Positions 13,158-17,450 of a DNA stretch of 64,000 nt are shown piece after piece. A program made the position numbers and the translations under genes. How positions within the stretch are numbered: the first letter of the stretch is position 1; each line of letters opens with the position of its first letter. A model generated the notes under the pieces. It did no database searches and was not told where the DNA came from. It was given only the letters and a program-made list of their open reading frames with translations. The stretch spans positions 1 through 64,000 of the forward strand of contig NZ_MPPI01000014.1 of the NCBI RefSeq assembly GCF_001895925.1. Direction: 5' to 3'. This DNA comes from Phormidesmis priestleyi ULC007 (lineage in GTDB: Bacteria; Cyanobacteriota; Cyanobacteriia; Leptolyngbyales; Leptolyngbyaceae).

Positions 13158-13179
13158 ACAAGGGGCTTAAGCCCCTTGT
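13158..13179. terminator. Perfect GC-rich palindrome between fmt and devA ends
   Basis: A 22-base perfect palindrome with 11-base arms (ACAAGGGGCTT and its complement) sits between two convergent genes and overlaps the first base of the devA stop codon. It can form a strong hairpin on both strands and probably serves as a bidirectional terminator, although neither side has a long T run. Confidence 0.6.
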
Positions 13180-13922
13180 TACTTAGGGTGCTGAACGATC
13201 GCATCAACAGCAGAACGATTCACCAAATGTCCATCTTCCATACAAATAATTCGATCGGCAAGATCCAGAATGCGGTTGTCATGAGTGACTAGCAAGATGG
13301 TGCAACCCTGTTCTCTAGCAAGTTTCTCCATAATCTCCACCACATCTCGTCCCGATTTCTTGTCCAGTGCAGCCGTTGGCTCGTCTGCCAGAATGATTTT
13401 AGGCTGACTGACCAGGGCACGCGCGATCGCCGTCCGTTGTTTTTGTCCACCCGACAAATCGCTCGGATAGTAATTCATTCGGTCTTCTAAGCCCACTGCG
13501 GTCAAGACATTCCGAATGCGAGTATCTGCCTCTGCTGCGGTCACAGTCTGAATCTCCAACGCCATTTCAACATTCTGATAAACCGTCAGAAAGTTTAATA
13601 GATTGTGCGCTTGAAAAATATAGCCGATATCACGACGAGCCAGGGTCATCTGTTCCTTGCTGGCATTGAACAATTCATGTCCTAAGATGCTTAAGCTGCC
13701 ATCTTGGATCGATCGCAAACTTCCCATAAGCGTCAACAATGTAGTCTTGCCAGAACCTGATGGCCCTGTCATGATCAGGATTTCGCCTCGATCGATTTGC
13801 AGATTAATGTCAAACAAAACCTGTTTTCGCAGTGAGCCTTGACCATAATGATGATTCAAGTGGGTCATTGAAATAGTGGGTTCAGAAGGCGCACTAATAG
13901 GAGTTTCTGGCAGATTAGACAT
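13179..13922 (-). CDS. devA: DevA-type ABC transporter ATP-binding protein
   Basis: ATPase of a DevBCA (MacAB-like) exporter. Walker A is TGPSGSGKTTLL, the signature LSGGQKQRTAIARAL, Walker B IILADEPTAALD, and the switch histidine is in LLVTHDNRI. It is 247 residues long. In heterocyst-forming species DevBCA/HgdBCA exports envelope glycolipids with TolC; the substrate here is unknown and homologues are common in non-heterocystous cyanobacteria. A good ribosome binding site (AGGAG) precedes the ATG. It is the last gene of the order methyltransferase-devB-devC-devA. Confidence 0.88.
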   Translation of the reverse strand: MSNLPETPISAPSEPTISMTHLNHHYGQGSLRKQVLFDINLQIDRGEILIMTGPSGSGKTTLLTLMGSLRSIQDGSLSILGHELFNASKEQMTLARRDIGYIFQAHNLLNFLTVYQNVEMALEIQTVTAAEADTRIRNVLTAVGLEDRMNYYPSDLSGGQKQRTAIARALVSQPKIILADEPTAALDKKSGRDVVEIMEKLAREQGCTILLVTHDNRILDLADRIICMEDGHLVNRSAVDAIVQHPK

Positions 13923-13931
13923 CTCTAACTC

Positions 13932-15104
13932 CTAAAAAATATCGGCGGGGTCAGCGGTTTGTAATTTACGCACGGCGATCGCAGCCGAGGATGAACTCAT
14001 GATTGCAGTGAGGACAAAGACAAACACAACCCGCCCCAAATCCATCGCCATCGGCAGCATGGTTGCAATATTAGTAATGCGATAGATGCCCAAGGCGATC
14101 AGAGTCCCAGGAACAAACCCAAGGGCCGCCAAAATTAGGGATTCTTGGAACACGACGATGAGCAGATAGCGATCGCGAAACCCCATCGCTTTGAGCGTGG
14201 CATATTCGGGTAGATGATTGGTCACATCGCTATAGAGAATCTGGTAGACAATCACCGCCCCTACAATAAAGGCAATGACCACGCCCAAATCAAAGGTATA
14301 GCCTACCGGAGTGCTGGCATTCCAAAAGGCAACTTCTGCTCTAGCATAGTCATCTCTCGTCATGACTTTGACATCATTGGGCAGACGCAATCGCATCGCT
14401 GCTAAAACCGCTTGAACATCTGCACCAGGCTTAAGTTTGATGACTCCGACATCAATCAACCCACCTCGACGAAAATTAGCCATGCGTAGAAAGTTGACAT
14501 CACTCGTCACCAAGTAGGCATTGATGCCAAACGTCGGGCTGAGTTTGAACAATCCCTGAACTTGAACTTGACGTTCATTAATCTCGGTTGTGATCGATTC
14601 CCCCGACTCAAACCGTTGGGCAATTGCTCCAAATTCTCGACGAGAACCCAGATTAAACAAAACTGTATCTGGTTCGCGCAGTTTCTCGCGGTTGGCTTCT
14701 ACACCCGGAACATTCATCACCTGATGTTCTGGGTTAATGCCGATCGCATAGATATCCCAAATTTCTTTGTTTTCAGGATTGCGCCACTGAATTGCATTGA
14801 GATAGATTGGGCTGACCGATGCAACACCCGTTACGCCTGCTGCCTGATAGAGTCGGCGCTCGCTAAACCGATCCAGGGAAATCAGCGCTCGCGATCGCCC
14901 ACTCAGCATGACAAGTTCACCGTTCAGGCTATTGTGAAATTCCACTGCGCTACTAAACAATGCGCCTCGAAAGCCCATTTGCAAAAACATCAGCACATCG
15001 GCAAAGCTAATACCTGCGATCGCCACGAGCAAAAGTGCCCGTTCTTTCCGTAACTGTAACCAGGACAAAAACAGCGGTTTCTTTTTCTGAGTCATTTTAG
15101 TCAT
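13932..15104 (-). CDS. devC: DevC-type ABC exporter permease
   Basis: Membrane subunit with the FtsX/MacB-like layout: one N-terminal membrane helix (about residues 20-45), a large extracytoplasmic domain (about 45-270) and three C-terminal helices (VVIAFIVGAVIVYQILYSDV, then VVFQESLILAALGFVPGTLI, then VVFVFVLTAIMSSSSAAIAV). The length of 390 residues fits DevC. The gene lies 9 bases from both devB and devA, so they form one transcription unit. AGGA precedes the ATG. Confidence 0.88.
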   Translation of the reverse strand: MTKMTQKKKPLFLSWLQLRKERALLLVAIAGISFADVLMFLQMGFRGALFSSAVEFHNSLNGELVMLSGRSRALISLDRFSERRLYQAAGVTGVASVSPIYLNAIQWRNPENKEIWDIYAIGINPEHQVMNVPGVEANREKLREPDTVLFNLGSRREFGAIAQRFESGESITTEINERQVQVQGLFKLSPTFGINAYLVTSDVNFLRMANFRRGGLIDVGVIKLKPGADVQAVLAAMRLRLPNDVKVMTRDDYARAEVAFWNASTPVGYTFDLGVVIAFIVGAVIVYQILYSDVTNHLPEYATLKAMGFRDRYLLIVVFQESLILAALGFVPGTLIALGIYRITNIATMLPMAMDLGRVVFVFVLTAIMSSSSAAIAVRKLQTADPADIF

Positions 15105-15113
15105 GCAATTTCC

Positions 15114-16301
15114 TCAAGATTTGACATCGAGTGATACTTGAATACTCAAATTTGTTAAACCCGAAACTCTACGACTAAACGGCTCATCCAATAGCACTTT
15201 CACTTCCACCACTCGCGCATCAAACTGAGCTGCCGGATCGGTGTTGAGAACATCTTGTTTGTTAATCTCTAGTCCGACTTCGACAACCTTGCCGCGTAGC
15301 ACGTCTGGAAAGGCATTGTTCTTGCTAATCACAGTTGCAGTCTGCCCGACTCGAATGCGGCTGATATCCAATTCGTAAACTTCTGCTACTGCCACCATTC
15401 TCTGAGTTTGCCCCAGGCTAATGATGCCTTGAGTCCCAACCAACTCTCCAGGACGAGTGTGGATTTTGAGAACTTGTCCATTTTGGGGCGATCGCACCGT
15501 TGCCAAGTCCAATTCTGCCTGTGCCCGCGCTACACTCGCCTGTGCTTGAGCCACCTGCGATCGCACCACCTTCACATCGACCGGGCGCACTTCTGCAATT
15601 TGATCGAGCGTGGCTTGCGCTTCAGCGACCTGCTTCTGTCGAGATAGCTGAATTCGGCTCAGATTAGCCCGCGCCTCGTTTAGCTGTTGCCGCACCGTAT
15701 CAGCAGTCAATTGCTTCCCATCGCGCAAAGAAGCAGAGATGGCACCTTCGGTATAAAGCGCCTGATAGCGCCGATCTTCGAGTTCTGCATTGCGAAGTTC
15801 TGCTTGCAGACGGGCGATCGTGGCTTCCTGGGCAACGGTTTCAGTTTGTAATTCCACCTGTTGGCGATCAACTACTTGTGCCTGCGCTCGAATTTCTCCC
15901 GACTTCGCGCCCGCTTCCACCTGCCCTAACCGGGCTTGGGCAACCCTCAACTGCTCTTGTGCTTCTTGCAAAGCTGCCCGCCGACGCGCATAAGTATCTA
16001 GAACTGCAATCACATCTCCTTGGCGAATCCGTTGACCGTGGCTCACTTTGAGAGTTTCCACTCGCGCCCCCTCTGAGGAGGTAGGCGCAAACACTTGAAT
16101 GACTTCACCCTCTGGCTCCAATCGTCCCAGTGCAGATACTGTTTCAACCTTGGGCGCAGCAGCCACCACGATTGACGGCTGAATTGGACGACTCAACCAG
16201 GTTCGGTAAGCAATACTGCCAGCTAGCAGGAGAAAACCGATCCCAAACATCGCCACTAAGCGAGGTGATCGCCATTTAGCTCCCCAATCCATATGATCCA
16301 T
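15114..16301 (-). CDS. devB: DevB-type periplasmic adaptor (HlyD family)
   Basis: Membrane fusion protein of 395 residues: a short N-terminal cytoplasmic tail, a membrane helix (residues about 14-32), a split lipoyl domain (LGRLEPEGEVIQVFAPTSSE and ATVRSPQNGQVLKIHTRPGE), a long coiled coil of about 150 residues rich in Gln, Ala and Arg, and a beta-barrel C-terminal part. It links the DevC/DevA pump to an outer membrane channel; no tolC gene is present here. It is transcribed after the small membrane methyltransferase gene. Confidence 0.9.
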   Translation of the reverse strand: MDHMDWGAKWRSPRLVAMFGIGFLLLAGSIAYRTWLSRPIQPSIVVAAAPKVETVSALGRLEPEGEVIQVFAPTSSEGARVETLKVSHGQRIRQGDVIAVLDTYARRRAALQEAQEQLRVAQARLGQVEAGAKSGEIRAQAQVVDRQQVELQTETVAQEATIARLQAELRNAELEDRRYQALYTEGAISASLRDGKQLTADTVRQQLNEARANLSRIQLSRQKQVAEAQATLDQIAEVRPVDVKVVRSQVAQAQASVARAQAELDLATVRSPQNGQVLKIHTRPGELVGTQGIISLGQTQRMVAVAEVYELDISRIRVGQTATVISKNNAFPDVLRGKVVEVGLEINKQDVLNTDPAAQFDARVVEVKVLLDEPFSRRVSGLTNLSIQVSLDVKS

Positions 16302-16316: not shown

Positions 16317-16787
16317 TCACACCCAACGCCGCACACTCGCTTTATAGCGAAGATATTCATCACCGAATTTTTGCTCTAGATAATGCTCTTCGCGCTTGAT
16401 CACGCCGTTTTGCACAACAACTATGAGCGGCAACAGAAGCAACAACGCCCAAAATGCGTTAAAAAGTAGCGCAATACCGACGTAAAGCATCGTTAAAGAT
16501 AAGTAAATCGGGTTGCGACTAAAACTGAACGCTCCGTCGGAAACGATCGCTGTCGTTGGACAAGAAGGATCAACTGCTGTCTGTGCGCGGCGCATCGCGC
16601 GAAAAGCCGAAATTGCGATCAAAGCCGCGCCGACAAGTAAAACCACGCCTGATGCGATCGCGATCCATTGCGGCAGGAAGGTAGCCGGAAAAATAAAATG
16701 AAGTAATAGTCCGATCGCGAGTGTCCCGGCAAAAAGCGCAGGCGGAAATGCAATGACTCCGGGATTATCCACTGTTTCTTCTGACAT
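16317..16787 (-). CDS. Isoprenylcysteine carboxyl methyltransferase-like membrane protein
   Basis: Small integral membrane protein of 156 residues with four or five hydrophobic helices. The C-terminal part, FSRNPIYLSLTMLYVGIALL followed by REEHYLEQKFGDEYLRYKASVRRW, is the conserved SAM-binding region of the ICMT/PEMT superfamily. The substrate is unknown. The frame opens with TTG at 16802, but the ATG at 16787 follows GAGGAA at a good distance. It is the first gene of the minus-strand unit continuing to devB, so it may modify the exported lipid or act beside the pump; that is positional inference. Confidence 0.8.
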   Translation of the reverse strand: MSEETVDNPGVIAFPPALFAGTLAIGLLLHFIFPATFLPQWIAIASGVVLLVGAALIAISAFRAMRRAQTAVDPSCPTTAIVSDGAFSFSRNPIYLSLTMLYVGIALLFNAFWALLLLLPLIVVVQNGVIKREEHYLEQKFGDEYLRYKASVRRWV

Positions 16788-16823
16788 TGAATTTTTCCTC
16801 AAAGGTTGACCTTATCTACTCTA

Positions 16824-16855
16824 ATTATTGTATTCAAAAACTTGAATACAATAAT
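16824..16855. promoter_or_regulatory. Perfect 14-bp-arm palindrome, candidate operator of the dev cluster
   Basis: The arms ATTATTGTATTCAA (16824-16837) and TTGAATACAATAAT (16842-16855) are exact complements separated by 4 bases. It lies between the methyltransferase start (16787) and the divergent PadR-type regulator start (16902). A weaker, similar dyad follows at about 16858-16877 (ATGTATAGTCAACGTATT). The placement suggests autoregulation by the PadR protein together with control of the exporter unit. Confidence 0.7.
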
Positions 16856-16901
16856 CAATGTATAGTCAACGTATTGAATTCGTCAAGTAGAGTTTTTGGT
16901 T

Positions 16902-17450
16902 ATGGCACTCAAGCACACCATCCTGGCATTCCTGTCTCGTCAGCCTTTGAGCGGCTATGACGTTGCCAAAGAGTTTGCTGAAGGGTTTGGCAGTTGCTTT
17001 TGGAAAGCAAGTCAGCAGCAAGTTTATGCCGAACTGACAAAGCTAGAGCAGCAGGGCAGCGTCACTTACGAGGCAATTCCGCAACCGGGACGACTCGATA
17101 AAAAAATCTATTCCATCACGGATCAGGGACAGCAGGAACTACTCGATTGGTTAACTCAACCCTGCGAACCCGCCGCTATTCGTGAAGATTTGGGCGTGAT
17201 GGGGTTGGCGGGCCATCTCGTTTCCTCTCAGGTAGTGATCCGCGAAATTGAACGGCGGCGACAATTACACGTTGAAATGGTGCAACACGTCAAGAAATTA
17301 GATGAGCATTTCTCTCAGCATCTCGATTCGCTAGACTTAAAGGATCTCTATATGCATTTAGTAATTCGTCGCGGCATTCGCTATCAGGAAGAGTGGGTAG
17401 CTTGGTGCGACGAAGCGCTTCAGGCGATCGGGCAAACTGTAAAACGCTAG
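16902..17450 (+). CDS. PadR-family transcriptional regulator
   Basis: DNA-binding repressor of 182 residues. The N-terminal winged helix starts MALKHTILAFLSRQPLSGYD, the classic PadR opening, and includes the wing GRLDKKIYSITDQGQQEL; a C-terminal helical dimerisation domain follows (residues about 95-182). The frame also opens at a TTG two codons earlier (16896), but the ATG is preferred. It is divergent from the methyltransferase-devBCA unit, with a perfect palindrome in the gap. The ligand is unknown; PadR proteins often sense phenolics, drugs or membrane stress. Confidence 0.88.
   Translation: MALKHTILAFLSRQPLSGYDVAKEFAEGFGSCFWKASQQQVYAELTKLEQQGSVTYEAIPQPGRLDKKIYSITDQGQQELLDWLTQPCEPAAIREDLGVMGLAGHLVSSQVVIREIERRRQLHVEMVQHVKKLDEHFSQHLDSLDLKDLYMHLVIRRGIRYQEEWVAWCDEALQAIGQTVKR

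Follow-up and report, generated by a model that had tools for sequence, protein, structure and literature searches.

The window, by which we mean the whole 64-kb stretch of DNA that was analysed, carries a padR gene on the plus strand (16902..17450) that faces a minus-strand operon in the order methyltransferase (16317..16787), devB (15114..16301), devC (13932..15104) and devA (13179..13922), with gaps of 15, 9 and 9 bases between successive genes. The membrane fusion protein DevB (TIGR02971, 346 bits against 129), the permease DevC (TIGR01185, 465 against 290) and the ATPase DevA (TIGR02982, 355 against 296) all pass their curated NCBIfam cut-offs within this single operon and thus form a DevBCA-type exporter. 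Pfam and NCBIfam profiles agree with the naming of these genes as PadR, methyltransferase and DevBCA in an earlier note on this DNA, with one nuance: the 156-residue methyltransferase, called ICMT-like there, belongs to the PEMT family (PF04191, 60.3 bits for a cut-off of 25) and stays below the ICMT cut-off (PF04140, 23.8 against 24; NF040696, 32 against 160). Since PF04191 is passed and the ICMT model is missed by so little, "PEMT/ICMT-like" is a fair label. The protein also resembles LmtA weakly in a profile match, and its predicted structure is poor (pLDDT 60.4). RNP(I/L)Y and REE, which we take to reflect the RNPxY and EE motifs of PEMT-fold membrane methyltransferases, are present in all four methyltransferases found at such loci and place them in this fold. 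Downstream, devA and fmt are convergent, and between them, at the end of devA, lies a GC-rich dyad with 11-bp arms (13158..13179) that may act as a terminator; a terminator scan did not return it. Elsewhere in the window, another perfect dyad with 13-bp arms (996-1025, AAAAGCCCTCCACTTGCGTGGAGGGCTTTT) is likely a bidirectional terminator.

The PadR protein (182 residues) combines an N-terminal winged helix (PF03551, 50.5 bits) with a C-terminal Vir_act_alpha_C domain (PF10400, 61.2 bits), the two domains of the AphA-like subfamily 1. Its structure model is confident (pLDDT 91.5) and matches PadR-family structures best, among them Rv1176c with a TM-score of 0.88; operator-bound PadR and AphA are also matched, though with whole-chain TM-scores that are low and an rmsd that is high, which suggests that the orientation of the domains differs. 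Among solved structures, AphA is the best match in sequence (E 1e-29), and the recognition helices are near-identical (FWKASQQQVYAEL / FWKASHQQVYREL). The PadR of Bacillus subtilis is a phenolic-acid regulator. It has fold and family in common with the window's protein (PDB 5x11, with operator), at 27-29% identity.

Pairing of a perfect dyad with padR

The divergent gap of 114 bp that separates the starts of the methyltransferase gene (16787) and of padR (16902) holds a perfect dyad, O1 (16824..16855), our main predicted PadR operator. Its 14-bp arms (ATTATTGTATTCAA / TTGAATACAATAAT) match exactly on either side of a 4-nt spacer, AAAC, so that 28 bases are paired in a span of 32 bp; the conserved core (16828-16851) reads TTGTATTCAA-N4-TTGAATACAA. 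O1 is the longest perfect dyad of the window for spacers of up to 20 nt. Dinucleotide shuffles of the gap produced 12-bp arms in 0 of 2,000 cases and 11-bp arms in 1 of 2,000, and when the entire window was shuffled 12 times, arms of 13 bp never arose. The exact 28-base dyad described previously as central in the gap is hence real and beyond chance, its centre (16839.5) lying 5 bp from the middle.

We compared 37 loci whose padR is close to that of the window (at least 70% identity), namely 8 from a genome search and 29 of 40 named loci; L060, L061 and L070, where the padR start is missing, are outside these counts. The earlier note had proposed to look for the palindrome upstream of orthologous clusters, and there it is, at no more than 3 mismatches in 20, in 36 of the 37 loci, L052 being the sole miss. 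Symmetry of the left arm is lost in L003 and L032. The non-redundant set of 31 loci leaves out L003, L004, L006, L007 and L050, whose upstream DNA is near-identical to that of L032, L035, L041, L045 and L047, as well as L009 (55% identity) and L052 (no operator). In these 31 loci, the core is exact in 14 and has one mismatch in 11, when shuffled upstream regions (n = 620) mostly gave 8-10 mismatches, with one at 3 and one at 5. CAA/TTG (core positions 8-10 of each arm) is invariant in 31/31 loci, and the four central spacer bases vary. On the left flank of the dyad, A(C/T)TC (16818-16821) is kept in most loci at 7-10 bases from the core and, taken with the left arm, resembles an overlapping third half-site, 14 bp away from O1.

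The site also has the form of a PadR-family operator, with an ATTCAA-N4-TTGAAT core (6-bp half-sites, 4 apart) inside the 24-bp pattern. The palindrome derived from ChIP-seq of AphA in Vibrio cholerae, ATGCAA-N4-TTGCAT, for which excerpts of the source report a 25-bp footprint at one site, shares this geometry and the CAA-N4-TTG centre (PMC6855506). The canonical PadR repeat, ATGT/ACAT with 8-10 apart in the excerpted description (PMC3506622), falls in the same register as ATTC-N8-GAAT here.

A scan of 388 genomes from the class found the core at no more than one mismatch in 25 and a close padR in 29 (30 matched padR at the cut-off, of which G009, at 56%, was left out). Both occur together in 24 genomes (hypergeometric 3e-32, a figure that ignores relatedness), with the site 40-88 bp ahead of the matched padR; in the 25th genome bearing the site, G298, the padR beside it is frameshifted. 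Five genomes have padR and lack a site at this threshold (G001, G130, G176, G266 and G285), and a backwards control pattern had 0 matches in the 388 genomes. Among 58 relatives, every site with at most one mismatch adjoins a close padR; such a padR exists in 8 of them, 7 having the site at this threshold and G001 at 3 mismatches. From this genome-by-genome tracking, as from the sequence conservation, the dyad would very probably be the operator of the adjacent PadR, which is what the earlier note had supposed.

A genome-wide regulon of near-exact sites was considered and rejected, with one site at no more than one mismatch per genome, bar G053, which has two, one each on two contigs. At the looser level of 3 mismatches, a copy of the operator pattern (L095:3433-3456, or G000:C109:37432-37455) precedes a sigma-factor-like gene by 48 bp, and the same-genus genome G001 has a 3-mismatch copy at the equivalent place (L096:3577-3600). 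Judging from the protein sequences, we take this gene to be group-2 sigma-factor-like and to stand behind ppk. The regulon may accordingly extend beyond the padR locus.

Two other roles for the dyad have to be weighed against these data. It might act mainly as RNA, a 5' stem-loop that stabilises or controls the exporter mRNA, with PadR binding incidental: the stem would have 15 pairs, the 72-nt leader folds at -17.7 kcal/mol (z -3.98), and outside the 10-bp core the outer positions 1, 2 and 4 are complementary beyond shuffled expectation (P about 0.006 each, eight positions tested). Good folding is however expected of any perfect dyad, the outer complementarity is partial and may have arisen through quasi-palindrome correction or through protein contacts that reach further out, and the central CAA/TTG is fixed in sequence beyond what mere pairing demands; as the pattern moreover tracks the presence of padR across genomes, we hold this role to be quite improbable. 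Still harder to credit is that O1 serves another, global regulator and sits here by chance. Operators in divergent gaps can indeed serve other regulators, and the weak copy upstream of the sigma factor gene could be read in this way, but near-exact sites are confined to genomes with this PadR and, within them, to padR.

Predicted promoter architecture and a putative second operator

The exporter promoter of the window is predicted on the minus strand as TTGACG-N16-TATACA, from 16886 to 16859 (-35 at 16881..16886, -10 at 16859..16864), with a transcription start that the spacing would place near 16852. In 28 of the 31 loci, whichever gene comes first in the operon, a predicted promoter of the TTGAC-N15..18-TA type lies ahead of the O1 core and ends 4-7 bp from it; given this position, O1 would span roughly +1 to +24 of the exporter transcript. 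As a plain promoter scan gave no excess over chance (5 against 4.5), the claim of a promoter rests on its conserved position. The 31-locus comparison revealed no conserved padR promoter, so that it is from position that padR autoregulation is proposed.

The promoter spacer is itself filled by a degenerate and presumably weaker putative second operator, O2 (16864..16879, AGTCAA-N4-TTGAAT), which agrees with the core at 11 of 12 positions and sits 32 bp, or about three helical turns, from O1. Over the loci, the offset +32 scores a mean of 7.61 matches in 12 against 3.65 across offsets, and, among those scored from -60 to +60, is surpassed by O1 and by the offset -14; that -14 and +14 stand out is partly due to each arm being near-palindromic. 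Excerpts of the AphA work describe that AphA can occupy adjacent sites cooperatively (PMC6855506). In more distant PadRs (about 39-55% identity), the core falls within the spacer of a TTGAC/TA promoter in 19 of 25 loci, a placement reached by 0 of 5,000 shuffles, and these sequence comparisons suggest that the operator in the spacer came first and that O1 was added in the close branch.

The two branches also differ within the protein. An inserted Gly30 is found in 31/31 close PadRs against 0/24 distant ones, and position 43 is Ala in 29/31 close and Arg in 23/24 distant PadRs. Cys169 is kept in 55/55 PadRs and Cys32, two residues ahead of a Trp that is conserved in the recognition region, in 47/55 (close 31/31, distant 16/24), whereas AphA has equivalents of neither. 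Two conserved cysteines make it possible that PadR is a thiol sensor, with a thiol switch, but they could also be structural.

Cargo genes, spread and likely function

The pairing of PadR with DevBCA recurs, DevB being present in 21 of the 31 divergent operons (7 that extend far enough lack it, and in 3 it cannot be read), but the methyltransferase does not define the unit. By a count made by hand, as was that of DevB, the first divergent gene encodes an SDR in 14 loci, DevB in 11, a methyltransferase in 4 and an NmrA-like protein in 2. With 4 of 31 operons led by it, we rejected the methyltransferase as a core component; its link to the window's locus is real, though it is optional cargo there. 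An FeS/SCP2 protein follows the SDR in 4 loci, a MAPEG-like gene lies near 4 non-redundant loci (one checked by Pfam), and single loci carry a GST and an MFS pump in addition. In Synechocystis salina (L042:2948-6540), two padR genes of the family (49% and 80% identical to that of the window) flank one SDR, with an HlyD gene adjoining. The genes that distant PadRs face encode HlyD-RND pumps, DevBCA, RPE65-type carotenoid oxygenases and a Monooxy_af470-like protein, as named from the loci with Pfam run on examples. The distant AphA-like padR genes divergent to RPE65-type carotenoid oxygenase genes are those of L097, L098, L109 and L112, the oxygenases of L098 and L112 being confirmed by Pfam, and the PadRs of all four lack Cys32.

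The identity of PadR does not track kinship. It is 91% in the same genus, where that of Fmt is 81%, 91-92% in two genomes of family f24 (Fmt 67-68%) and 90% in two of family f26 (Fmt 58-61%), when further f24 and f26 genomes have PadRs at 77% and 79%. This mismatch, together with the presence of padR in 29 of 388 genomes, suggests that the padR switch was transferred horizontally, although strong constraint on PadR may also explain its high identity. A tree inferred by a quick method, leaving out L059 (frameshifted) and L069, has at least 8 changes of the first gene within the close branch, a minimum on an uncertain tree since 9 of its 52 branches are starred.

What the operon is for can be read from this cargo. 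The earlier note had suggested that it may be a stress- or drug-induced system for envelope lipid export. On that reading, the same switch would control a methyltransferase that modifies a lipid and a DevBCA that exports it. According to the excerpted source, the founding DevBCA does export heterocyst glycolipids (PMC8277102), and the methyltransferase fits the PEMT phospholipid methyltransferase family and, weakly, LmtA. It is however missing from most loci, where an SDR, DevB or NmrA-like gene takes its place and where a GST, MAPEG or MFS pump is sometimes added, and drug resistance and the efflux of ethidium depend on some of the DevBCA paralogues (PMC8277102, in excerpts). We therefore consider lipid export unlikely as the function; detoxification and efflux, to which the SDR and NmrA-like first genes and the added GST, MAPEG and MFS pump point, are the more likely role, and the exporter unit may be induced by drugs or stress.

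Overall, we are fairly confident in a scheme in which O1 is a high-affinity operator from which PadR blocks the exporter operon until an inducer releases it, within a mobile switch with exchangeable cargo. PadR dimers would occupy O2 and O1 and hold up RNA polymerase where the methyltransferase-devBCA operon has its promoter and start site, and they would dampen padR as well. Once an inducer freed PadR from the DNA, the efflux pump would be turned on with its local modifying enzyme, here the membrane methyltransferase. Switch and pump would move horizontally, and the cargo enzyme would be swappable. More tentatively, and as a conjecture that we think rather doubtful, the cyanobacterial AphA-like PadR branch might be a thiol sensor of electrophiles or lipid-derived carbonyls and a mobile cassette that captures detoxification enzymes (methyltransferase, SDR, NmrA-like, GST) beside DevBCA or an RND pump, a perfect start-site operator having joined the ancestral promoter-spacer operator in the close branch.

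From a comparative perspective, the best reading is that the PadR-DevBCA unit is new in detail and LmrR-LmrCD-like in kind. In Lactococcus lactis, excerpts of three sources describe LmrR as likewise an autoregulated PadR-family repressor of a multidrug ABC pump with an inverted-repeat operator (PMC5428041, PMC4534193, PMC3506622). LmrR is nevertheless a small subfamily-2 PadR, when that of the window is AphA-like with a C-terminal domain, and LmrCD is a heterodimeric exporter, unlike the tripartite-type DevBCA with its divergent genes and added enzyme. AphA, for its part, is described in the excerpted material as a genome-wide quorum-sensing regulator, whereas near-exact sites of the window's PadR lie only at padR. 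The Anabaena DevBCA-HgdD system and its drug-efflux paralogues Alr4280-4282 and Alr3647-3649 belong to the same exporter families as here, but control by a PadR, as proposed for the window's unit, is not mentioned in the excerpts of that source (PMC8277102). Our literature search found no publication on PadR together with DevBCA, and, among the titles listed for PadR with Synechocystis, heterocysts or cyanobacterial efflux, none on this system; excerpts on Phormidesmis priestleyi BC1401, from which L032 comes, mention a DevBCA-like cluster without a PadR (PMC4971617), and Npun_R1304 of Nostoc punctiforme is, in the excerpt concerned, another PadR (PMC7660261).

For a class of DevBCA exporters that tends to be considered in terms of heterocyst lipids, the locus offers a regulator, an operator and a promoter that can be tested, and its tight pairing of one site with one regulator could serve as a clean inducible promoter, given an inducer. 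It also suggests that cyanobacteria hold a small family of PadR switches for chemical defence, facing DevBCA, RND pumps and carotenoid oxygenases.
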